IMG/VR virus record: IMGVR_UViG_3300026094_001012
Coordinates: 1 to 33,157 of that record
Reading direction: 5' to 3' (one strand)
Length of the DNA: 33,157 bases
Origin: a virus
How positions within the stretch are numbered: the stretch's first letter is position 1; the number at the start of each line of letters is the position of its first letter. Below, in pieces: positions 3,452 through 21,418 of the stretch. The notes beneath the pieces were generated by a model. It worked only from the letters and a program-made list of their open reading frames with translations. It was not told where the DNA came from and made no database searches. The position numbers were made by a program, and so were the translations under genes.

Positions 3452-4266
3452 TAATACGAATCGAGATGATCGATGCCAAGTTTTTTCCTAAAATCTTCTG
3501 TAAAAACACAATCTACCCGCACGCCGTACTCTTGCTCTTTGGATTCTTCTCCACCGTGCCAGTCTTGGTCGTTCCAAAAAGCAGCATGGCAATTTAGATA
3601 ATATTTGTTCTGTTCTTCTGGATCCCAGATATAGAATCCCCTTTTAGTTCTAGGCCGTATATGTATAAATTCATTTTTATGATCAGTATAATAGTCGTTT
3701 TCAAAAACGCCATTATTTGCATCGAGATCTCTATGTTCAAATGCCTTGCCGTTATGATCGCAATGAAAGATTATAACTCTGCCAATCTGTTCTATAATGT
3801 TATTATCAATTAGATTGTAAACCCATTCAACTAGTCCTGGAAAAAATTTTGACTCTTCGGTAGGTTCTCTTTTTGCGTTCCTATGATTCCAGTCGCCCTC
3901 TTCCCATAAAAAGTAATAATTATAAGGATCGTTTGCTCCTAGAGTATTTTTTAAATATCTTGTAAAAACATTTCTCTGCTTATAATCACTAAAGTTGTTA
4001 GGCAGTATTTTGTTTCCTGCAATTTTTATAGGGTCGTCATCGGATAGTGCTTGATATTCTTCCCATGCTTTGTAAATGGGTTTCCAGTTAATTATATAAC
4101 TGGCCTGATTCCAATCAAAACCGGGCGCCATCCAAGTTCCTTCTTTAGCGTAGTCTCTAGCTAATGCCATTCCTTGTGCAATTTCTGGATGTAAGTTAAC
4201 GAACCCTGCAGTATCAATGTAATCATCTAGTTTAATATATTTGTTTCCGCCTATTCCTCTAATCAT
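3451..4266 (-). CDS. Putative 2OG/Fe(II)-type or Asp-hydroxylase-like oxygenase
   Basis: 271 residues. A candidate metal triad is H178-x-D180 (AFEHRDLD) with H237 (DQDWHGG), followed by R250 near the end of a predicted double-stranded beta helix (EYGVRVDCVF). That order is typical of Asp/Asn hydroxylase-like 2-oxoglutarate oxygenases, but overall similarity is only at motif level. Four other proteins in the window share the H-x-D...H layout. A strong ribosome site AGGAGG (complement of 4272-4277) lies 5 bases before the ATG, and an ACTAAATA late-like octamer lies upstream. It forms an operon with the radical SAM gene 2201-3451. Confidence 0.5.
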   Translation of the reverse strand: MIRGIGGNKYIKLDDYIDTAGFVNLHPEIAQGMALARDYAKEGTWMAPGFDWNQASYIINWKPIYKAWEEYQALSDDDPIKIAGNKILPNNFSDYKQRNVFTRYLKNTLGANDPYNYYFLWEEGDWNHRNAKREPTEESKFFPGLVEWVYNLIDNNIIEQIGRVIIFHCDHNGKAFEHRDLDANNGVFENDYYTDHKNEFIHIRPRTKRGFYIWDPEEQNKYYLNCHAAFWNDQDWHGGEESKEQEYGVRVDCVFTEDFRKKLGIDHLDSY

Positions 4267-4271
4267 TCTTA

Positions 4272-4293
4272 CCTCCTAGTGCGCATATTTAGT
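4272..4293 (-). promoter_or_regulatory. Late-like promoter and Shine-Dalgarno for 4266->2201
   Basis: On the minus strand ACTAAATA (complement of 4286-4293) resembles the T4 late octamer. It is followed by GCGCAC and a strong AGGAGG (complement of 4272-4277) 5 bases before the ATG at 4266. The octamer overlaps the plus-strand GTTAAATA at 4292-4299, giving a compact divergent promoter. Confidence 0.45.
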
Positions 4294-4299
4294 TAAATA
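4292..4299 (+). promoter_or_regulatory. Late-like octamer GTTAAATA, 5 bases before ATG 4305
   Basis: GTTAAATA followed by TTGGT and then ATG. No Shine-Dalgarno is present. If transcription starts 6-7 bases after the octamer, as at T4 late promoters, the transcript would begin at or next to the start codon and be essentially leaderless. Confidence 0.4.
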
Positions 4300-4304
4300 T
4301 TGGT

Positions 4305-5012
4305 ATGAGAGAAAATGTATTTGAATATTACTATAATAATGTGCCTCACAAAGGGTTATGTAGGAATAACCTAATTTATACTAGTCTAATATCTTCTGAT
4401 AGAAAGACATTTTGTCAATGGTTTTACAACGATACAGAATATCATAGATTAAAAAACAAAGTAGTTAAACCAGAGTTAATGCAGGAAAAATGGGAAAGAG
4501 AGGTAAGTTTTCTAGAAAAAATGCAAACTCATTATCCTAATCATGTACCTGTTGTTGAAGATATAGACTACAAAAATAAGAAAATATATTATCAAATCGA
4601 CGGATATGACATTTGGGAACAGAACGGCTGTACCGGCGAAACCTACGAAAAAGTTACTGCAGACTGGAAAGAGCAAATTTTAGAAATACTAGGTTGCTAT
4701 AGAAAATTAGGGATATATAAATATTCTTTGCATCCGTCAAGCTACTTTATAGTACATGGTAAGATAAAAAGTATAAATCATTTCTTTTGTTACACTGATG
4801 AAGACAGCCCTATTTCGATTTCTGACATTGAAAGTCATATAAGCGAAGAAAGATTAGATATGTTAAAAGACTATCTCGCAAAAAACAATATAAGTTATTA
4901 TACTAAACAAACTTTTAACACTATTCAAGAAATTGCTTTAAACAGTTTTCGAACTAATTTCTCTGATGATTTTATTGCTGACGCTAAAAAAGTTATGTTA
5001 GCTGACCTGTAA
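4305..5012 (+). CDS. Protein of unknown function, degenerate kinase-fold-like
   Basis: 235 residues, paralogous to 7734-8420. Shared blocks are ISSDRKTFC near residue 30, EVSFLEK, then DIDYKNKKIYY, and a segment KYSLHPSSYFIVHGKIKSIN (about residues 139-158). The last block recalls the catalytic-loop layout H..P.N...G.I..ID of aminoglycoside kinase-like proteins. However the catalytic Asp and metal-binding Asn/Asp are not evident, so if it is kinase-like it is probably a pseudokinase. This is inference from pattern only. The ATG has no ribosome site and follows a late-like octamer by 5 bases. The 3' end overlaps the opposing SDR-like gene by 20 bases. Confidence 0.5.
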   Translation: MRENVFEYYYNNVPHKGLCRNNLIYTSLISSDRKTFCQWFYNDTEYHRLKNKVVKPELMQEKWEREVSFLEKMQTHYPNHVPVVEDIDYKNKKIYYQIDGYDIWEQNGCTGETYEKVTADWKEQILEILGCYRKLGIYKYSLHPSSYFIVHGKIKSINHFFCYTDEDSPISISDIESHISEERLDMLKDYLAKNNISYYTKQTFNTIQEIALNSFRTNFSDDFIADAKKVMLADL

Positions 5013-5574
5013 AATTTGGATTTAATCTAAGAATATCATCTTTTACTGTTTTAGTTAATCTTCCTGCAAATTCAATATTCTTTATATTTGGATTTGATAA
5101 CCAAAAATCAATTGCGCTAATCACTTCTGTATAGGAAATACACATATCGCCTTTAATTTTTGTATCATCTTCGTAATCTTTTGGTTCTTGTTCAAGATGA
5201 CTTATATCAAGATGCAAGCACGGAATAGCATCAGGATTAAGACAGTATAGGCTAACAGTATCAAATAAGATTTGTTTATCCTTTGCTGATTTTTTTAAAA
5301 TTATATCTTGATAAAACCGTGCAACACTACCCATAACTATCATTTTTCCAACATGATCAACTAATCTTTCGAATAAATGAATTTGAACCCCATCGGCATA
5401 ACAGTTATTAATAAACAAATCACAGCCTTTACTTTCTTCAATCACGTCTAGCAAAGAATCTGGCAAGTTATATCCGTTTGATCTAGAGAATCCGATAACT
5501 TCGTTCTTTTTAGAATAGTAGTCATATAATGCTTTGCCTATTCCCGATGTGTGGCCCGTAATTGCTATTTTCAT
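4993..5574 (-). CDS. SDR-like NAD(P)-binding protein, catalytic Tyr apparently lost
   Basis: 193 residues, Rossmann fold of the short-chain dehydrogenase type. It has T6-G7-x3-G11-I-G13 at the N-terminus, the FSRSNGYNL segment, and DLFINN at about 52-57 (the NNAG position). It is a paralogue of 6170-6631, whose N-terminus is nearly identical. The partner carries Y94-x3-K98, but the aligned position here reads KKSAKDK with no Tyr, although the Ser of MGS is kept. It may bind cofactor without normal SDR catalysis, or act with the partner. The start overlaps the sulfotransferase stop by one base (TAATG). A sugar or alcohol oxidoreductase role is only a guess. Confidence 0.65.
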   Translation of the reverse strand: MKIAITGHTSGIGKALYDYYSKKNEVIGFSRSNGYNLPDSLLDVIEESKGCDLFINNCYADGVQIHLFERLVDHVGKMIVMGSVARFYQDIILKKSAKDKQILFDTVSLYCLNPDAIPCLHLDISHLEQEPKDYEDDTKIKGDMCISYTEVISAIDFWLSNPNIKNIEFAGRLTKTVKDDILRLNPNFTGQLT

Positions 5575-6170
5575 TATTTCTTATAACCTAAGTGTAAAAA
5601 ATCATCAGAATAATAGTTTTGTATTATTGTTTTAGAAGAGTCAGTCAACTTTTCTTGTATATCAACACCTTTTCCTATATGGGTTAAACTGTTAAAACAG
5701 TTTTCTACCTGTTGTATTTTTCTAAATGCATTTGTAATATTCTCAAAATGTAGTATATAATCTACATCAATCTTATTGTTTCTAGAAATATAACTAAATT
5801 GCGGTTTTAAAAACGGGTAAAATGTTTCCGATGGCAGAATTTCTTCAACAAAATAGTTAAGACCCTTTTCCCATTTTTCCATATTTAATCCCACACTTTC
5901 TATATAGTTGGCCACCGGACGCCTAGTTTTTAAAACTCTGAATGCTTCCTTATACAGACTTTCTATTCGAGAATAAGGATTTCTTACTACTGCAAAAGAG
6001 TAAGAATATCTAAAATGATCAAAATCTACTATACCCCCGTGTTCTATTTTGTATATCTCTTCAACGAATTCTAATTGTTCTAACCAAGCAAGTATACATC
6101 TACCTGCATTTTTTGGAATATGAATATGTAGGATCGAATTTCCGTTTTTTTTTGTTACAAGATAACTCAT
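5574..6170 (-). CDS. Sulfotransferase-family protein
   Basis: 198 residues. The N-terminal HIPKNAGRC (about 17-25) matches the 5'-phosphosulfate loop of PAPS-dependent sulfotransferases (PK-x-G-x-T/S type). FAVVRNPYSRIESLY (about 59-73) matches the 3'-phosphate-binding motif (R-x-P-x-x-R-x-x-S). It resembles the small carbohydrate sulfotransferases rather than the larger aryl type. Expected reaction: transfer of sulfate from PAPS to a hydroxyl of a sugar or other small acceptor, in the cytoplasm, since no signal or membrane segment is seen. It lies between two SDR-like paralogues with one-base stop/start overlaps on both sides, so the three should be co-expressed. Confidence 0.75.
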   Translation of the reverse strand: MSYLVTKKNGNSILHIHIPKNAGRCILAWLEQLEFVEEIYKIEHGGIVDFDHFRYSYSFAVVRNPYSRIESLYKEAFRVLKTRRPVANYIESVGLNMEKWEKGLNYFVEEILPSETFYPFLKPQFSYISRNNKIDVDYILHFENITNAFRKIQQVENCFNSLTHIGKGVDIQEKLTDSSKTIIQNYYSDDFLHLGYKK

Positions 6171-6631
6171 TACTCAGTTTGAAACCCTATAAAATTGACA
6201 GAGTTATTTTTTAACCAAAATTCTATTGCATCAAAAATTAGAGGAAATTGTCTATAACTTTTTCCAGTCAGCTGTAAGTACAAGAAATCATTTTTTGTGT
6301 GGTTATAATTTTTTAAAAAATATTCTTCTATTTTTTTCTTTTCTGCACAGTAATAAGGCATGTCTGGGTTAGGACTACGAGCGGCAATTGATCCCATTAC
6401 TACATGCTTGATATCTCGGCAAGACTGTAGATATTTCATCTGAGCTCCCATTGCAAAAGAGTTATTAATAAACAAATCACAAGATTCAATTTGCTTCACG
6501 ATTATATTATGATCTTTTTCTAGATCATATCCGTTAGAACGCGAGAATCCTATACAATCATGATAGAGCGAATACTCGTCAAAGAGAAATTTGCCTAAAC
6601 CTGACGTGTGACCTGTAATTGCTATTTTCAT
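6170..6631 (-). CDS. Short SDR-family oxidoreductase-like protein
   Basis: 153 residues, shorter than a typical SDR (about 250). It has T6-G7-x3-G11-L-G13, DLFINN (52-57), MGS with Ser81, and Y94-C-A-E-K98, so the Ser-Tyr-x3-Lys catalytic set is present. The region after the Lys is trimmed. It shares the MKIAITGHTSG start and the FSRSNGY segment with 4993-5574, clearly a duplication. Its start makes an ATGA overlap with the upstream gene and its stop a TAATG with the sulfotransferase. An NAD(P)-dependent oxidoreductase acting on a sugar-like substrate is likely, with the substrate unknown. Confidence 0.7.
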   Translation of the reverse strand: MKIAITGHTSGLGKFLFDEYSLYHDCIGFSRSNGYDLEKDHNIIVKQIESCDLFINNSFAMGAQMKYLQSCRDIKHVVMGSIAARSPNPDMPYYCAEKKKIEEYFLKNYNHTKNDFLYLQLTGKSYRQFPLIFDAIEFWLKNNSVNFIGFQTE

Positions 6632-7173
6632 TTTCCAAACGCATTAAGAAGATATTTAGGCTCTAACCCACAATTTGACCCTGCATGCCAGCTTTTTCTT
6701 GATTGCCATTCATAGACATTGCCTTTTTCTTCGTTGTAAAATGCAACATCGTCTACTACAAAAAAATGCCCAAATTTTGGGTTTGTGATGTGACAATGAA
6801 ATCTACGATAGTGATCTTCGGTATATTCATTTTCATTAGACTGTACGTCCCAATGAATAGGAGCAAAACATCCTGGATTTATTTTGCTTATCCACATGCT
6901 GACTGGTTCAGTAATGCCAACAAAATCCCAAAATCTATCAGCGTCTTCTTGATTCCATTGCTTGCCTGGAAAATACATATCCCATGCGACAGTCCCTCCA
7001 TTGTCAAATCTATCGTACCATTTTCTCCAAATTTCATTTATTTCTCTAAGCTGAGGAATGTCATTGTCCATACCTTTGCCCGGGCCAACATATTCAGGAG
7101 ACGTTTTCTCACATTTTTTTATTATCTTGTCCCAATCTATTATACTACTACAGTTGCCAAAAAACTTTGCCAT
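6628..7173 (-). CDS. Asp/Asn-hydroxylase-like H-x-D...H protein (copy 1)
   Basis: 181 residues from the ATG at 7173, which is preceded by AAGGAGA. A longer frame to 7191 exists but lacks this site. The metal-ligand pattern is H107-W-D109 (APIHWDV) and H163 (KSWHAG), inside a cupin-like series of strands (SKINPG, FHCHITNP, HFFVVDDVAFY, GNVYEW). This matches the aspartyl/asparaginyl beta-hydroxylase fold and suggests a 2-oxoglutarate/Fe(II) oxygenase. It is a clear paralogue of the adjacent 7184-7741, sharing the HWD motif, the MAK start and the ..WD.VL/II.. opening. The target may be a peptide side chain or small molecule. Confidence 0.65.
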   Translation of the reverse strand: MAKFFGNCSSIIDWDKIIKKCEKTSPEYVGPGKGMDNDIPQLREINEIWRKWYDRFDNGGTVAWDMYFPGKQWNQEDADRFWDFVGITEPVSMWISKINPGCFAPIHWDVQSNENEYTEDHYRRFHCHITNPKFGHFFVVDDVAFYNEEKGNVYEWQSRKSWHAGSNCGLEPKYLLNAFGK

Positions 7174-7183
7174 TCTTGTCTCC

Positions 7184-7741
7184 TTATACATAACCTAGAA
7201 AATGGTAAAGATACTGCGGTTCTTTGCCCGCAACAGTTGCAGCATGATAAGAATCCCAATTATTCCACTCAATTATTGATCCTTGTTCAAGGTCATAAAA
7301 TAATTCGTCTTCTATTATAAATGCAGATCCCCATTTTGGTGTATCAATAAAACAGGTAAATCTTACTAATTCTCCTAGTTTTTTCCATTCGTCTGCTCTA
7401 TCATCTACGTCCCAATGATGAGGTACATTCCTACCTGGATCGACTCTGCTAACCCAACTTCTTAGAAGCGTGGATCCTGTAAATTCAGCAAACTCTTTAT
7501 CTATACTATCAGAATAATGTTTACCGGCAAAGTAGTCGTACCAATAAATATCAGAAATTCTGTAACCTGCTTTTACACAACGTTCAAATATTTCTTTGTA
7601 GGCATTATAACTAGGAGTATCTGGGAGAGAGGCTTTGTTCTCCCAAATTATAGCAAAATCTCTTTTGTCTCCTTCGCCCAAATTCGATAAAACATCATTC
7701 CAGTTGATTGTAGACAACTTGTTTTCTAATACCTTAGCCAT
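7184..7741 (-). CDS. Asp/Asn-hydroxylase-like H-x-D...H protein (copy 2)
   Basis: 185 residues, MAKVLENKLSTINWNDVL. The ATG at 7741 has an AAGGATAT ribosome site. H109-W-D111 (VPHHWDVDD) and H166 (DSYHAAT) form the likely Fe(II) triad. The intervening strands VRFTCFIDTPKWG, SAFIIEDELFYDL and GSIIEW match copy 1 (6628-7173) one for one, so the pair arose by tandem duplication. It overlaps the upstream kinase-like gene by 8 bases. Probably a 2-oxoglutarate-dependent hydroxylase, on motif evidence only. Two tandem copies may act on two sites or two substrates. Confidence 0.65.
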   Translation of the reverse strand: MAKVLENKLSTINWNDVLSNLGEGDKRDFAIIWENKASLPDTPSYNAYKEIFERCVKAGYRISDIYWYDYFAGKHYSDSIDKEFAEFTGSTLLRSWVSRVDPGRNVPHHWDVDDRADEWKKLGELVRFTCFIDTPKWGSAFIIEDELFYDLEQGSIIEWNNWDSYHAATVAGKEPQYLYHFLGYV

Positions 7742-8420
7742 CGAATATATCCTTGTAAATAAATTCCAATGAATAGTCTCCCCATTTTATGTGATTCATA
7801 AGTCCATTTTTAAACATTTTCTCTAGATCGACTTTTTCATTATTCACTGTTACTCCTTGTTCTTTAATTCTATACTCACTTTTTTTAGATATAATAGCAT
7901 CAATGTATTTTTTATCGATATAGATGTTGTCAATTTCGGTGCATGCATAGAAATCAAACGTTTTCATGTTTCCTTGTTTGTCTATAAAATGACAATGAGG
8001 GTATTGAGATAATTTATAGACTTTCATAGAAATCTGTCTTTTAATAATTTTGTGTAATTGATTAAGCCAAGCATCTATAGAACCAGTTTGTGTAGGATAC
8101 AAACTATGATTACAGCAATCATCGTTCCATTCAAAAAATATTCTAAAATTTTTATAATCTATGTCGATGTTGTTGGGAGCAAAGTCTTCTTTTTCAAAAA
8201 TTTTAAGAAACTTTACTTCTTTTTCAAAGAAATATTCTGCAACTTCTTTATAGTTTCTTACGTTGTCTGCAAATGTGTTTTGATAGTGGTTATTGGGGTC
8301 GTAATTAGCACAAAATGTTTTCCTATCTGGACTTATCAAAGGTTCGTAGGTTTGCTGAGGAGAACACCAGTTTCCTTCAGTATCTTTATTAAAAAAATAA
8401 TTCCAATTTTCTAGTTTCAT
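7734..8420 (-). CDS. Protein of unknown function, paralogue of 4305-5012
   Basis: 228 residues. It shares LISPDRKTFC (about 29-38), EKEVKFLKIF, NIDIDYKNFRIFF, the VYKLSQYPHCHFIDKQGNMKTFDF segment and the CTEID turn with 4305-5012. The H..P...F.D..G..K..DF layout resembles the catalytic loop of small-molecule kinases but lacks the canonical Asp, so any kinase activity is doubtful. It is the first gene of a six-gene minus-strand operon running to 4993. A perfect TATAAATA late octamer lies upstream, with a palindrome between octamer and ATG. The two paralogues bracket this operon in opposite orientation. Confidence 0.5.
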   Translation of the reverse strand: MKLENWNYFFNKDTEGNWCSPQQTYEPLISPDRKTFCANYDPNNHYQNTFADNVRNYKEVAEYFFEKEVKFLKIFEKEDFAPNNIDIDYKNFRIFFEWNDDCCNHSLYPTQTGSIDAWLNQLHKIIKRQISMKVYKLSQYPHCHFIDKQGNMKTFDFYACTEIDNIYIDKKYIDAIISKKSEYRIKEQGVTVNNEKVDLEKMFKNGLMNHIKWGDYSLEFIYKDIFDG

Positions 8421-8431
8421 GTGCGTATTCC

Positions 8432-8444
8432 GCTAATTATTAGC
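8432..8444. repeat. 13-bp palindrome GCTAAT-T-ATTAGC downstream of a late promoter
   Basis: Six-base perfect arms around one central base. It starts one base downstream of the minus-strand TATAAATA, so it covers the expected transcription start of the 8420->4993 operon. It could be an operator or a 5' mRNA hairpin. Confidence 0.45.
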
Positions 8445-8445
8445 A

Positions 8446-8453
8446 TATTTATA
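8446..8453 (-). promoter_or_regulatory. Perfect T4 late promoter TATAAATA for the 8420->4993 operon
   Basis: The complement of 8446-8453 reads TATAAATA exactly. It lies 25 bases upstream of the ATG at 8420, in the 55-bp divergent gap. It is the best consensus match in this part of the window and should drive late expression of the six-gene cassette. Confidence 0.65.
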
Positions 8454-8475
8454 GACTTTATTTTTTAGGACAAGT

Positions 8476-9036
8476 ATGTTTGAAATTATAGAATGGAACG
8501 AAAAACTGAATTTAAATTCCTTTTATAGTAATGCCGCAGAAAGAGGTTTTGTTAATAACTCTTCTCAGAAAAAAATGATAGACTGTTTTCGAAACGAAAA
8601 AGAATGGAATGCATGGATACTTTATAAAGGCGGTTCTGCGATAGGTAGTGTTGCTGCGCATAGCTTCGAAGATATTATGGGAGAAAATTCTTTTAGAATA
8701 CTTACTAGAACTTGTTCATTTGCAGAATACGCACCGTCAAAAGGGTTAATTACACCAAAAAAATTAGTCGCACAACATCAAAACTTTACTGACCAATTTC
8801 TACTTCCTACTTGTTTAGATTGGGTAGATGATCGAGGAAGGGTGTTTGCTACTTCAAACGCTAACGAACAAGGTAGCCAACGTCTGGTTCATAATTATTA
8901 CTTTCCTACTTTAGTGAAGATTGGCATTGTATCAAAAGTAAAAGATGTTTATTACAGGCATACCTATCAAACAGTATGGGAAATACACCCTGATAACTTT
9001 TATGCTAACCTAAGTAAATTTCCTAGGTGGCAATAG
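8476..9036 (+). CDS. GNAT-like putative acyltransferase, conserved in marine phages
   Basis: 186 residues. The central part, ILYKGGSAIGSVAAHSFEDI..NSFRILTRTCSF (about residues 48-83), has the beta-hairpin and conserved Arg pattern of N-acyltransferase folds. QHQNFTDQFLLPTCLDW and NANEQGSQRLVHNYY follow. I associate these blocks with an uncharacterised protein common in T4-like marine phages. A classic acetyl-CoA loop (Q/R-x2-G-x-G/A) is not evident, so the activity is uncertain. An AGGAC ribosome site precedes the ATG. It stands alone on the plus strand, and its 3' end overlaps the opposing gene by 14 bases. Confidence 0.5.
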   Translation: MFEIIEWNEKLNLNSFYSNAAERGFVNNSSQKKMIDCFRNEKEWNAWILYKGGSAIGSVAAHSFEDIMGENSFRILTRTCSFAEYAPSKGLITPKKLVAQHQNFTDQFLLPTCLDWVDDRGRVFATSNANEQGSQRLVHNYYFPTLVKIGIVSKVKDVYYRHTYQTVWEIHPDNFYANLSKFPRWQ

Positions 9037-9691
9037 TAAGGCTGAATTCTGTAGGATCTAAGTTATCAAGTTCGTGTAATCTATCTGTTTGTAAATCAAA
9101 TGACACACCATCTGATATAATTTTAAAATTAGCAAGAGTATTTTGTTTATTAAACTCATTTAGAAGAGGGCTTATTTTATTATCAAAAATAAATCTTGCT
9201 TTTTCGTGTATTGGTCTAACTATAACTCTACTAGGATTGACCAATTGAGTTTGTATAAGACGTTTTCTTACCACTAATTGATATCTGTCGTTACAGTCAA
9301 GATTGACAGCAGAATGTATTCGTCCTGCGTCCATTTCATAAATAATTCCATCGTTTTCAATTTTGTGTATTTCTTGATTATCTACATCCATAAAATAAGA
9401 ATTTTCGCCTACTACGTTTAGGTGATATCTATCGTCAATATCAGCATGTTGCAAATAGCAATTTCCTGATGAAAGATTAATAATTCTTGCTTCGCCTATA
9501 TCCTCAGGAAAAAAATCTAAAATACTTTCCCATACAGTGTTTTTAAATTCTTCTTTTATGATCCATTTATCATAGAAAAAATCACCCGTTGGTTGATTGA
9601 GTGAGGTTTTAACATCACTCATTTTAGAGATATAAGTTGATGCGTCTTTAATTAATTCTAATGGTATAGTTCTATAGGTAGCTGTTATCAT
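9023..9691 (-). CDS. 2OG/Fe(II) or Asp-hydroxylase-like oxygenase with long C-terminal tail
   Basis: 222 residues from the ATG at 9691. A TTG at 9715 would add eight residues but would overlap the promoter-like octamer. H82-A-D84 (LQHADIDDRYH), H126 (AGRIHSAVN) and R136 (DRYQLVV) form the metal and 2-oxoglutarate-binding pattern of the Asp/Asn hydroxylase fold, complete by about residue 145. The remaining about 75 residues are a distinct tail of unknown function. The ATG has no ribosome site and follows GGTAAATA by 5 bases. It stands divergent to the QueC-like operon and convergent to the GNAT-like gene. Confidence 0.65.
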   Translation of the reverse strand: MITATYRTIPLELIKDASTYISKMSDVKTSLNQPTGDFFYDKWIIKEEFKNTVWESILDFFPEDIGEARIINLSSGNCYLQHADIDDRYHLNVVGENSYFMDVDNQEIHKIENDGIIYEMDAGRIHSAVNLDCNDRYQLVVRKRLIQTQLVNPSRVIVRPIHEKARFIFDNKISPLLNEFNKQNTLANFKIISDGVSFDLQTDRLHELDNLDPTEFSLTIAT

Positions 9692-9696
9692 ATGGA

Positions 9697-9704
9697 TATT
9701 TACC
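9697..9704 (-). promoter_or_regulatory. Late-like octamer GGTAAATA, 5 bases before ATG 9691
   Basis: The complement of 9697-9704 is GGTAAATA, then TCCAT, then ATG. Spacing is identical to that at 4292-4305 and 9733-9746, again without a Shine-Dalgarno sequence, implying a leaderless or near-leaderless transcript. Confidence 0.4.
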
Positions 9705-9732
9705 GTTTCAGACAAAAATCAAAAAAAGTAAC

Positions 9733-9740
9733 GATAAGTA
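9733..9740 (+). promoter_or_regulatory. Late-like octamer GATAAGTA, 5 bases before ATG 9746
   Basis: GATAAGTA (two differences from TATAAATA) is followed by TTTCC and the ATG at 9746. It supports choosing this start rather than the ATG at 9692 and would produce a near-leaderless transcript for the QueC-like/radical SAM operon. Confidence 0.35.
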
Positions 9741-9745
9741 TTTCC

Positions 9746-10471
9746 ATGCGCATAGATCATAACATATCTCTTCCGTACGACAAAAAATGGCAGAGAATAG
9801 GCGTTAGTGTAAGCGGCGGCGCAGATAGTGCGTTGTTATTGTATTTAATAAGTAAAAAATACGATTGTGAAATACACGTTATCACCCAAATTCGCTGCTG
9901 GAAAACAAGACCTTGGCAACGGTATAATAGTGTAGCAGTGTTTGATTGGATGCAAGAAACGTTCTCAGATAAAAAATTTATCAGGCATGAAGGTTTCATT
10001 CCGCCTGATCTAGAATGGGCAGATAAAGGTCCTAACATTGTCGACGAGTACGGTAAACTAAAAAGCGGTAACCAAATAATTTTGCGATCACACAACGAAT
10101 ATATTTGTCATAGAGAAAATCTAGATGCTTGGTTTGCCGCAGTTAATCTTAACCCTGATATTAAGATAGACAATGCGTTAGAAGATAGAAACGAAGGCCA
10201 TATTCCTCCTGTTTTTGAACACATGGATACTGTTGTTTGTCATCCTTTTATTCATACTAGGAAAGATTGGATAATACAGCAATACTTTGACTACGATATC
10301 TTAGATCTGTTAGAACTCACTAGAAGTTGTGAAGGAGATAAAAATGATTATCCTGAAGTATTTGGTGATCTAGATTATAAAAACTATATACCGGGACAGG
10401 CTGTTCCAACATGTGGCAAATGTTTTTGGTGTAAAGAAAGAGAGTGGGCTCTAAGTCGTGTCAAAGAATAA
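9746..10471 (+). CDS. QueC-like PP-loop ATPase
   Basis: 241 residues from the ATG at 9746. The same frame opens at 9692, but the extra 18 residues are Lys-rich and would overlap the divergent promoter. SGGADS (23-28) is the PP-loop that binds ATP and adenylates a carboxyl or related group. C195 together with C223-x2-C226-x2-C229 (TCGKCFWC) reproduces the zinc site of 7-cyano-7-deazaguanine synthase QueC. The middle (ITQIRCWKTRPWQRY, HTRKDWIIQQYF) is divergent, so the substrate may be another carboxylate converted to amide or nitrile. No QueD, QueE or FolE homologue is seen here. It starts an operon with three radical SAM genes, with 14 bases of overlap to the next. Confidence 0.7.
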   Translation: MRIDHNISLPYDKKWQRIGVSVSGGADSALLLYLISKKYDCEIHVITQIRCWKTRPWQRYNSVAVFDWMQETFSDKKFIRHEGFIPPDLEWADKGPNIVDEYGKLKSGNQIILRSHNEYICHRENLDAWFAAVNLNPDIKIDNALEDRNEGHIPPVFEHMDTVVCHPFIHTRKDWIIQQYFDYDILDLLELTRSCEGDKNDYPEVFGDLDYKNYIPGQAVPTCGKCFWCKEREWALSRVKE

Positions 10472-11729: not shown

Positions 11730-12606
11730 AGTTACCAGCAGGTGGCTGCACCAAGACTCTGTAAAAATAGAATGGAATTTAGGCAAGAGATGTAATCTTG
11801 ATTGTGCCTACTGTCCTGCGGAAATACATGACAATCATTCTCCTCATACTGATATAGAGATTTTAAAATCAACAATAGATAAATTATCTCAAATCGACAA
11901 ACCTTTGAGAATAAGTTTTACTGGAGGTGAGCCCTGTGTCCATCCCAAAATATCAGAACTGTTTGATTACACAAGACAGCATGCTTCGTGGATCAATGTT
12001 ACAACAAACGGGACACGAAAGGCAGAATGGTATGCCAACCAACCTCTAGATCATATTGTGTTTTCTCTACACTTTGAAACAGAGGACTGGGAAAGACATT
12101 TATTAAACATCGTAGATACACATGAATTAGTAGATATTCCAATACAGGTTAATGTAATGGCACATCACGAGCATATGGAAAATGTTAAGTTTGCCGCCAT
12201 GCTTCTACAAAATCACAAAATAAAGTATGTTATACGCCGCATTCGTTGGACCGAATCGCATGATTGGTTTGATGATATGCGCTACGACCAAAAAGATCTA
12301 GACTGGATCTTAGAAAACGAAGCAACTGCTTTACCTAACTGCGAGGTAGATGGAGAATATTACATACATGCTAACGACATAATAAAAAAACACGATAATC
12401 AATTTCAAGGTTGGCAGTGTAAAATCGGATTAGAAAGTCTTATGATTAACTGGGATGGTGAGGTTCATAGAGCAACCTGTAGAGTAGGCGGCAGTTTAGG
12501 AAATATATACAAAGGGAATTTTAATATTCCAACCGAGCCAGTTATTTGTGCTAGAAATTGGTGCACTTGTGCTGCTGATATTCCGATAACAAAAGAAAAA
12601 ATATGA
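11722..12606 (+). CDS. Radical SAM protein with C-terminal auxiliary Cys domain
   Basis: 294 residues. The cluster motif C24-x3-C28-x2-C31 (KRCNLDCAYC) lies very near the N-terminus, with GGEP at 68-71, typical of compact radical SAM barrels. The C-terminus holds C233, C253, C276, C281 and C283 in a SPASM/twitch-like arrangement (GWQCKIG, ATCRVGG, CARNWCTC) for one auxiliary cluster. Together with 12603-13688 and 16813-17808 it forms a second subfamily that lacks the N-terminal Cys domain and carries PAEIHDNHS or related text after the motif. It overlaps both neighbours (8 bases upstream, ATGA downstream). Confidence 0.85.
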   Translation: MYKVTSRWLHQDSVKIEWNLGKRCNLDCAYCPAEIHDNHSPHTDIEILKSTIDKLSQIDKPLRISFTGGEPCVHPKISELFDYTRQHASWINVTTNGTRKAEWYANQPLDHIVFSLHFETEDWERHLLNIVDTHELVDIPIQVNVMAHHEHMENVKFAAMLLQNHKIKYVIRRIRWTESHDWFDDMRYDQKDLDWILENEATALPNCEVDGEYYIHANDIIKKHDNQFQGWQCKIGLESLMINWDGEVHRATCRVGGSLGNIYKGNFNIPTEPVICARNWCTCAADIPITKEKI

Positions 12607-13688
12607 AAGTTGACGCTGTAAAACTTAATAATAACTATACAGAACCTATGATGGTTACCTGGGACACAGGCAAAAAGTGTAACTACGATTGCACATATTG
12701 TGCAGCTTCTCGTCACGATAATCATAGTGCTTTCCATACTCTAGAAGAATACCTAGACACTTTTTATTTTATTAGAGAATATGTAGACCTTTATGATCGA
12801 AATAAAAGCAACCCTGCTGATCATACTAACATAAATTTTACCGGTGGTGAGCCTACCCTAAATCCTCATTTTTGGGAATTGGCAGACAAAATTAAACAAG
12901 ATTATAGTAACTTTAGGTTGAGTCTTACAACAAACGGGGCTTGGAATAAAAAATACACCGAAAAAATCAAAGAACACTTTTCCGGCGTTACAGTAAGTTA
13001 TCATGCTGAATCTAATGATAAATTAAAAGAATTAGTAATCGACAATATTTTAGCATTGAAAGATACTGGCATATGGTTAGAGGTTAATGTTATGCTTCAT
13101 GCTGATTATTTTGACGAATGTGTTGAGGTTTACGAATACCTTAAACGAAACGGTGTTAAAGTTAATCCTATACCAATAGGCGATGGTAACGAAAGTAAAA
13201 AAGGATGGTTTGTTGACGACGGAGGTGTTTTTAGAAAAACTACTCATGATTATAATCAAAAACAGATAGATTGGTTTTTTCGAGAAACAGGGCTAATTAA
13301 AAATACTGAATGTTCATCAGGAGATGAATTCGGAAGAGGGTGCTGCGGAGGAAGATGTATTGCAGGCTTGGTAGACGGAGTTTGGCAGCAGATATCCAGT
13401 ATTGATACACATTTCAAAGATTGGTACTGCTCTGTCAACTGGTACTTTTTACACATCGAACAACACACTGGTCTAGTGTATCATCATCAAACCTGTCAGG
13501 CAAAATTTCAAGGAGAAAAAGGTTCTATAGGATCTCTATCAGACACAGGAAAAATATTAAATAAAGTGTCAGAAAGTATTAACAAAAATAAGATTATTAG
13601 ATGTCCTAACACAAGATGCGGTTGCGGAATGTGTGTTCCAAAGGCAAAAAATAAGGAAATTTTTAATCAAATTAGAGCATCTATTTAG
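12603..13688 (+). CDS. Radical SAM protein with Cys-rich C-terminus
   Basis: 361 residues, paralogue of 11722-12606. C26-x3-C30-x2-C33 (KKCNYDCTYC) is followed by AASRHDNHS, and GGEP is at 81-84. The C-terminal third is unusually Cys-rich (GRGCCGGRCIAG, DWYCSVNW, HQTCQAKF, RCPNTRCGCGMC), enough for one or two auxiliary Fe-S clusters. It is the last gene of the plus-strand operon, joined by an ATGA overlap. The 54-bp gap to the convergent gene at 13743 holds no obvious hairpin terminator. The function is probably sequential modification of the same substrate as its neighbours, by inference only. Confidence 0.85.
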   Translation: MKVDAVKLNNNYTEPMMVTWDTGKKCNYDCTYCAASRHDNHSAFHTLEEYLDTFYFIREYVDLYDRNKSNPADHTNINFTGGEPTLNPHFWELADKIKQDYSNFRLSLTTNGAWNKKYTEKIKEHFSGVTVSYHAESNDKLKELVIDNILALKDTGIWLEVNVMLHADYFDECVEVYEYLKRNGVKVNPIPIGDGNESKKGWFVDDGGVFRKTTHDYNQKQIDWFFRETGLIKNTECSSGDEFGRGCCGGRCIAGLVDGVWQQISSIDTHFKDWYCSVNWYFLHIEQHTGLVYHHQTCQAKFQGEKGSIGSLSDTGKILNKVSESINKNKIIRCPNTRCGCGMCVPKAKNKEIFNQIRASI

Positions 13689-13742
13689 TGAATACATCAG
13701 TAATTTATAACTACACATATTTTTGTATAAGTGCAGGTGCTT

Positions 13743-15152
13743 TTATAATAAATGTGCTAATTCAGGAAATACAGACTTAGCATCAATTCCTCTAATTGTG
13801 TCTAGTTCTGTAATATATTCTCTAAAGCCTGATAATTCATTAGATTTGTCTTCAGAATCCATGTGATTCATTACAGCTTCCCAGCGTCTCCAACCATAGG
13901 GATTGTGTTTCCAAAAATCATCATCCTGTCTGTAATTGCGCCAGAGCCATTCTCTAAATTCTGCATATCTTTCTCGAACTTCTTGCTTGTCTTCCTTAGG
14001 TAAAACCTGTATACTTAGAAAAGTAGGAAGATATAGTAGATGCATATTAACTAATCCTCCGCCCATTTGTACTCCGCCTGGCACATTAGCAAAATTCAAT
14101 TTTTTAAAACCAGATTCTACCTTCCACTTCATGAAATCTGGAAGGTGTTTTACATTGATAATCTGAATTGCTGTGGCAAGACTAGTTGTTATATTATCAG
14201 GCGTATTGTCCAACATGTGTAGATTGCGTTCTACTGTCTGCCAGTCAGTTGGGTAACGGATATATTCGTCTCTTTCGTAGCAGGCATCCATAGATATGGC
14301 AAATTTTACTTTTTTAAAACGCTTCCACATGTCTATTAGGTCTTCATCTACAAGTAATCCATTAGAATTATATCGCAACAGAATTTTATCTTGGTATCCC
14401 TGACGAAGTATTTCTTCTATGAACTGCTTGTGTTCTTTGATCATTAGAGGTTCGCCGCCAGCGAAATATACCTGTCTTAGATTGGGAATCTGCGCATACA
14501 TGTCTTCCCAGAATGTTGATTTTTCGTGCCACTTGTTATCAAACTGTTTTTTATCAAACTGCATTTGACTAGTAACATTAGGATCTTTCAGCTTGTCCAT
14601 TAGCTTGGAATGATCCTGCAGCCATCTCGACGAATCATGCGGAGAACACATTACACATTTTATGTTACAGGTATGTCCGAGCCTTAAATCAAGATATTTT
14701 AGTTGTTCAGGCACTGTGCCGTCATCTTTGGTTTGGCGAATAAGCTCTGGAATATCAACGTCGTCGTGGTGCCAAGTAAGTGTTTCCCAAATTCTTTTAG
14801 ACACAACTCCGTTTGATTCTTCTTCGAAACACTTAGTACAAGATTTAGGAACATTACCTGCTAACATACTAGTACGCACACTTTTCATGTAACCGTTATT
14901 CCACGCACTCATCGGAGTATCTCTTCCAAAATTAGCAGGCTTGCCGTTCTTATTTTTTACAAGTCCGACTTCATGATCTCCTCCGGCTCCGCTAGCATTA
15001 GCAGAACAGCATAGCCGCATGTCTCCGTTTGGCCTAGTAGCAAAATGTATCCAAGGTAGAATACAATAGGTAGAAGATCCTGACACAGATTCAATTTTGT
15101 ATTGTAAATCCGAAACAGAAAGCTGTTTTAATTTTTCTAGTTCGTTACTCAT
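13743..15152 (-). CDS. Radical SAM protein with N-terminal twitch-type Cys domain
   Basis: 469 residues from the ATG at 15152, which overlaps the preceding stop as ATGAGTAA. An in-frame start at 15215 would lie 71 bases inside the upstream gene and is less likely. The SAM cluster motif is C162-x3-C166-x2-C169 (HTCNIKCVMC), with GGEP at 232-235. The N-terminal Cys domain has C30, C48-C49 (MRLCCSA) and C105-x2-C108 (SCTKCFEEES). This is the longest of the four twitch-first members. It closes the minus-strand operon that begins at 21376 and faces the end of the plus-strand radical SAM operon. Confidence 0.85.
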   Translation of the reverse strand: MSNELEKLKQLSVSDLQYKIESVSGSSTYCILPWIHFATRPNGDMRLCCSANASGAGGDHEVGLVKNKNGKPANFGRDTPMSAWNNGYMKSVRTSMLAGNVPKSCTKCFEEESNGVVSKRIWETLTWHHDDVDIPELIRQTKDDGTVPEQLKYLDLRLGHTCNIKCVMCSPHDSSRWLQDHSKLMDKLKDPNVTSQMQFDKKQFDNKWHEKSTFWEDMYAQIPNLRQVYFAGGEPLMIKEHKQFIEEILRQGYQDKILLRYNSNGLLVDEDLIDMWKRFKKVKFAISMDACYERDEYIRYPTDWQTVERNLHMLDNTPDNITTSLATAIQIINVKHLPDFMKWKVESGFKKLNFANVPGGVQMGGGLVNMHLLYLPTFLSIQVLPKEDKQEVRERYAEFREWLWRNYRQDDDFWKHNPYGWRRWEAVMNHMDSEDKSNELSGFREYITELDTIRGIDAKSVFPELAHLL

Positions 15153-21401: not shown

Positions 21402-21409
21402 AATAAATA
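21402..21409 (+). promoter_or_regulatory. Late-like octamer AATAAATA for the 21419->27284 operon
   Basis: AATAAATA, one change from the late consensus, ends 9 bases before the ATG at 21419. No ribosome site is visible. The predicted transcript would have at most a few leader bases. Confidence 0.45.
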
Positions 21410-21410
21410 A

Positions 21411-21418
21411 TATTTATA
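21411..21418 (-). promoter_or_regulatory. Perfect late promoter TATAAATA for the 21376->13743 operon
   Basis: The complement of 21411-21418 reads TATAAATA. It lies between two divergent operons, one base from the plus-strand AATAAATA at 21402-21409. It would drive the eight-gene minus-strand operon. Confidence 0.6.

Follow-up and report, generated by a model that had tools for sequence, protein, structure and literature searches.

Can the late promoters of a phage lie so close to a start codon that the messenger RNA (mRNA) begins with the start codon itself? The question is raised by a 33,157-base virus record (IMG/VR record IMGVR_UViG_3300026094_001012), a 33-kb fragment called the window below, in which three genes carry an octamer of the T4 late-promoter type exactly 5 nucleotides (nt) before their ATG and no Shine-Dalgarno (SD) sequence. 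On the plus strand, GTTAAATA (4292 to 4299) forms the arrangement GTTAAATA-TTGGT-ATG in front of a 235-amino-acid gene (4305 to 5012) that has no match in Pfam or PHROG. On the minus strand, GGTAAATA (9697 to 9704) forms GGTAAATA-TCCAT-ATG at a 222-amino-acid gene (9023 to 9691), and back on the plus strand the variant octamer GATAAGTA (9733 to 9740) forms GATAAGTA-TTTCC-ATG at a 241-amino-acid gene with a QueC-like C-terminal match (9746 to 10471). All three genes are predicted to be leaderless. Taking the window together with its relatives, we hold leaderless late transcription from T4-type late promoters to be the best explanation, and a highly probable one.

An earlier note on this DNA had described these three sites and set them against two genes with longer leaders and ribosome sites, and both descriptions proved exact. 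The plus-strand octamer GATAAATA (1014 to 1021) is separated from the ATG at 1050 by a 28-nt leader with the SD sequence TAGGAG, and the minus-strand octamer ACTAAATA (4286 to 4293) from the ATG at 4266 by a 19-nt leader with AGGAGG (4272 to 4277). Octamers as such are not overrepresented in the window, where TATAAATA with one mismatch occurs 109 times against 106 expected, so that the unusual feature is their position relative to start codons. We scored the core TAA(A/G)TA and counted distance as the number of bases between the octamer end and the ATG. At distance 4 to 5, the core precedes 3 of the 57 ATG candidates in the window, compared with a mean of 0.23 and a maximum of 2 in dinucleotide shuffles (0 of 200 reached 3). 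One caveat concerns the gene at 9746: its reading frame continues without a stop back to another ATG at 9692 (open reading frame, 9692 to 10471), which leaves room in principle for the octamer to be part of the coding sequence. This option is countered by the 32 of 42 homologues that have the octamer 3 to 6 bases before the start.

The earlier note had suggested counting octamer-to-ATG distances against shuffled sequence. We ran this count on 160 related IMG/VR loci and four long relatives (G001 to G004, the first three of 282 to 364 kb), and it gave a large excess, the core standing 4 to 5 bases 5' of an ATG about 10 times as often as the shuffles predict. Across 732 divergent gene heads, TAAATA was found 157 times at distance 5 (92 distinct) and 46 times at distance 4 (33 distinct), compared with 0 to 10 times elsewhere. 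A de novo hexamer count at divergent starts likewise returned TAAATA at distance 5 (109 occurrences) and TAAGTA at distance 5 (86, versus 0.6 per control distance) as the two hexamers most specific in position; the GATAAGTA site is therefore a normal variant. Individually, G001, G002 and G003 hold 8 + 17, 8 + 13 and 8 + 13 sites at distances 4 + 5, with about 0 to 2 at neighboring distances; pooled, the three gave 76 sites versus 7.4 in shuffles. A second, broad group of octamers in the long relatives lies 16 to 30 bases from the start. The same peak is present in the Pelagibacter phage HTVC008M, with 10 sites at distance 5 and 11 at 4 to 5 (2.0 in shuffles), and its relatives have 34 sites at distance 5. 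The sharp excess at a fixed distance that the earlier note anticipated is thus found, but at 4 bases as well as at 5. In G004, there are 10 sites at distance 5, 6 at distance 7 and 0 to 2 elsewhere; this smaller peak at 7, on pieces L525 to L532, is possibly a second spacing class.

Orthologues retain the arrangement. The octamer stands 3 to 6 nt before the start in 25 of 50 orthologues of the 4305 gene, and 25 of 30 orthologues of the minus-strand 9691 gene are of the leaderless type; in homologues of the window genes, the spacing is kept despite changed flanks and spacers. The minus-strand gene starting at 4266 is of the leaderless type in 46 of 57 distinct homologues, which use the same start codon, although in the window it has a leader and an SD sequence. 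All 27 orthologues of the 1050 gene have a leader with an SD sequence. Taken together, the patterns of the window genes indicate that leaderless and leadered forms are exchanged gene by gene.

The leaderless-type sites share further properties, as expected of leaderless genes. When distinct sites are pooled, 212 are at ATG, in 71 protein families, compared with 4 at GTG and 5 at TTG (both near background). An SD sequence is present in 4 of the 71 leaderless-type families versus 55 of 113 families with the octamer 16 to 30 bases away. The profile of the sites contains a TATAAATA-like octamer, in which the T at -13 is variable and A/G is tolerated, and no -35 element. In 90% of distance-5 families a C or T stands at -1, compared with 51% of all ATG starts, and in the HTVC lineage it is a pyrimidine in 33 of 37 cases. 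A pyrimidine at -1 followed by a purine at +1 is the usual context of a bacterial RNA start. The -1 pyrimidine and the A at +1 are consistent with an RNA start six bases after the octamer. The T4 late octamer occupies -13 to -6 and RNA starts at the sixth base after it (PMC1524935), so that five spacer bases put +1 on the A of ATG.

These considerations bear on the alternative that survives best, namely that the octamers are real promoters but that the RNA begins 5' of the ATG, either a few bases away, giving leaders of 1 to 4 nt, or from another upstream promoter. The existence of two spacer lengths, 4 and 5, speaks for it. We nonetheless find this improbable, because T4-type octamers start RNA at the sixth base after the octamer (PMC1524935), the -1 pyrimidine beside the A is the usual start-site context, and where two such promoters stand back to back, their octamers and spacers take up all of the roughly 26 bp available.

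A different alternative, to which we give slightly less credence still, would make the octamer at 4 to 5 bases a signal for starting translation and not a promoter, with an A/T-rich context of the start codon taking the place of the SD sequence. The motif is indeed fixed in its distance to the ATG, and it replaces the SD sequence at those genes. Its distribution among genes does not suit such a role: in the first relative set, the motif stands at distance 4 to 6 at 218 of 666 divergent heads but at 16 of 1,948 closely packed same-strand genes. In the long relatives, some same-strand genes do carry it, with 8 sites among the 228 genes in G001 that closely follow a same-strand neighbor. Moreover, the identical hexamer recurs with a leader at 16 to 30 bases, and orthologues swap the close motif for an octamer with a leader and an SD sequence. 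Finally, the motif matches the core of the T4 late octamer, and the phages encode a matching sigma factor: a gp55-family late sigma, phrog_12791, is found in G001 to G004 (E about 1e-79; 1.5e-78 for one match), and HTVC008M encodes the late sigma phrog_234.

The genes behind the octamers are those expected of late promoters. In relatives of the window, they include the terminase large subunit, the tail tube, a head-tail adaptor and baseplate wedge proteins. HTVC008M has nine sites directly 5' of annotated coding sequence starts within its first 50 kb, and the genes behind sites in this phage encode the tape measure, DNA end protector, head closure, tail tube cap and two baseplate proteins (gp2 and gp4 being among the products). 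The weakest alternative, that AT-rich intergenic DNA yields TAAATA near ATG by chance, has next to no probability. In its favor, octamers as such are no commoner in the window than chance allows, but the pattern is not recreated by shuffling dinucleotides or by permuting the hexamers or the palindromes, and the AT-rich phages T4, PBECO4 and Atu_ph07 do not have it.

We therefore favor leaderless late transcription, which could operate as follows. A -10 octamer, NNTAA(A/G)TA, without a -35 element, would be read by the gp55-family late sigma and, by its placement, would make RNA polymerase start at the A of the ATG; ribosomes would then have to initiate on a 5'-terminal AUG without an SD sequence. 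Each phage would combine leaderless late genes with others that keep an ordinary leader of about 10 to 25 nt, often with an SD sequence. The proposal of the earlier note, that mRNAs from these late promoters would have the start codon at their very 5' end, agrees with the sequence evidence that could be brought to bear on it (the peak at 4 to 5 bases, the restriction to ATG, the scarcity of SD sequences, the -1 pyrimidine, the gp55-family sigma and the virion genes).

Several observations weigh against this interpretation. In G001 to G003, a quarter to half of the sites are at same-strand starts with short gaps, so the sites are not found only at obvious heads of transcription units; we read these same-strand sites in the long relatives as promoters within late gene arrays. 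In the 4-base class, the -1 pyrimidine is less strict (about 61%), and from a fixed start position the RNA would begin with the T of ATG, such that the start must shift by one base. Neither gp55 nor the sliding clamp gp45 was identified in the window, itself a 33-kb fragment, and nor was the co-activator gp33, for which no dedicated test was made. With the models used, gp45 was not found in G001 to G003 either; phmmer does find the gp45 of HTVC008M. The Pfam clamp model PF02916 is uninformative here, as it has no match anywhere, HTVC008M included. Lastly, where the RNA begins is inferred from the promoter spacing, and its translation as a leaderless message is an inference as well.

Many divergent gene pairs in the relatives have two outward-facing promoters with 25 to 27 bp between the two ATGs; in HTVC008M, the back-to-back pair is gp2/gp4. 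A stretch of this size, or a longer, locus-specific one, would hold both promoters and both starts. We scanned 2.9 million viral contigs of IMG/VR blindly with the palindromic pattern CAT-N5-TAYTTA-N4-TAARTA-N5-ATG and obtained 118 stretches; 88 of the 114 examined have long open frames on both sides, representing 48 flanking gene families. The control pattern, permuted at equal composition, returned 14 stretches, 2 of them qualifying. Hexamer-to-hexamer gaps in back-to-back pairs were 4 to 5, 17 to 19 or 32 bp. The idea that this spacing is quantized was dropped, as the values probably reflect a few orthologous loci. In the window, the minus-strand ACTAAATA octamer (4286 to 4293) is back to back with the octamer at 4292 to 4299 and overlaps it by two bases, making the 4266/4305 pair a half-leadered version of the back-to-back arrangement. 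Elsewhere in the window (21402 to 21418), opposite-strand octamers, AATAAATA on the plus and TATAAATA on the minus strand, lie between divergent starts at 21403 (minus strand, TTG) and 21419 (plus strand, ATG), at distances of 7 and 9 and hence outside the 4/5 rule.

How widely is the close spacing distributed? The peak at 4 to 5 bases is absent from T4, Syn9, PBECO4, KVP40, Cr30, phiM12, phiM9, Atu_ph07 and PA5oct, and from the parts of S-CAM3 and OLIVR5 that the distance comparison covered. Counts of the pattern over whole records, ignoring gene starts, are a weak test, in which PA5oct and Atu_ph07 were not separable from background. We rejected a trait of all T4-like phages, since T4, KVP40, Syn9, PBECO4 and PA5oct have no peak, as well as, for this motif, a trait of all phages of Alphaproteobacteria, since Cr30, phiM12, phiM9, Atu_ph07 and OLIVR5 (in part) have none. 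In a tree of the gp43 DNA polymerase, G001 to G003 group with PBECO4 and Atu_ph07 (support, 100/100) and HTVC008M groups with Syn9 (94/96). Because these two lineages of marine T4-like phages are only distantly related and the closest relative tested for either is without the trait, the leaderless spacing probably arose at least twice.

The arrangement resembles the T4 late promoters (gp55/gp33/gp45, with TATAAATA at -13 to -6) in its TAAATA core, the lack of a -35 element, the gp55-family sigma of the relatives and the virion genes served. However, T4 octamers are mostly 20 to 30 bases from the ATG, and at 4 to 5 bases they are at chance level (1 site; shuffle mean, 2.4), whereas in the phages studied here a large share of start-associated octamers is at 4 to 5 bases. 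The general statement of the earlier note on T4 late promoters was thus right, but the close spacing deviates from T4 and should not be counted among its traits. The cyanophages Syn9 and S-CAM3 have the octamer core in common, and Syn9 has the late sigma family, but their distances are about 20 to 30 without an excess at 4 to 5, which HTVC008M, the sister of Syn9, does have. Some bacteria, Alphaproteobacteria among them, have many leaderless mRNAs (PMC4117421), and leaderless initiation in Escherichia coli and Caulobacter prefers AUG (PMC9031893). With the leaderless genes of Caulobacter, Mycobacterium and Deinococcus, the phage genes share a dispensable SD sequence, a preference for AUG and, as predicted here, a start codon at the mRNA 5' end (PMC4117421, PMC9031893); they differ in using the -10 element of a phage late sigma, in serving the late regulon of phages from two lineages, and in occurring in bidirectional versions. 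The giant phage AR9, which has its own RNA polymerases, is alike in its large size and dedicated late promoters but has leaders of 26 to 491 nt (PMC5312081). The open-access literature that we searched contains no report of leaderless late transcripts or promoters in T4-like phages, where an earlier report is possible. Since leaderless mRNAs are known in bacteria and we found no description in T4-like phages, we rate the arrangement as a new version of the T4-type late promoter.

If this is true, phages have, probably on two occasions, converted part of their late regulon to leaderless translation, within a promoter system known mainly from work on a phage with leaders. Late-promoter prediction with the methods used for cyanophages failed in pelagimyophages (PMC7029224), a failure that the leaderless spacing may explain. 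The sequence rule could help to revise start-codon assignments in a group of marine phages, and it shows how a stretch of about 26 bp can serve two divergent late genes. It also makes testable how these hosts initiate translation without SD sequences late in infection.

HTVC008M (91237 to 91392) and three of the four long relatives, G001 (332212 to 332364), G002 (292290 to 292445) and G004 (41266 to 41424; all three on the minus strand), encode the ribosomal protein bS21. As this protein affects mRNA-16S pairing at initiation, a phage bS21 could divert host ribosomes from SD-dependent starts and favor leaderless late messages. We regard such a coupling of leaderless late mRNAs to a ribosome changed by phage bS21 as unlikely, if worth naming. 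Among the 13 reference phages searched, bS21 was found only in PA5oct and Atu_ph07, both without the leaderless peak, and HTVC008M bS21 is taken up into E. coli ribosomes, which are then inactive in the assay applied (PMC6375957). That bS21 is itself a leaderless gene was rejected for G001 and G002, where it has a leader with an SD sequence.

Two groups of genes behind leaderless-type promoters deserve mention. In both lineages, an adenylate/guanylate cyclase gene directly follows such a promoter (HTVC008M, 11972 to 13807; G001, L193:8254-10299; G002, L210:4558-6606), an odd place for a signaling gene, among late genes; the G001 protein has a CHASE2 domain. In HTVC008M, genes annotated as curli csgF, csgG and csgB (7562 to 9557) start at a leaderless-type late promoter.

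As for the window itself, a search of phage records for DNA similarity to it gave zero matches. Its gene at 107 to 718 has distant kin (26 to 33% identity) in jumbo phages such as PBECO4, GAP32, PA5oct and XaC1, and close relatives of two window genes are present on many IMG/VR contigs. The gene content includes radical-SAM proteins, the QueC-like protein, a UDP-glucose dehydrogenase and a tail-fiber gene. A tight array (4993 to 8420) contains two similar small genes (4993 to 5574 and 6170 to 6631), both beginning with MKIAITGHTSG, along with other small minus-strand genes. Upstream of the minus-strand ATG at 8420, at a distance of 25 nt, stands a further octamer, TATAAATA (8446 to 8453, minus strand), whose leader has no clear SD sequence.

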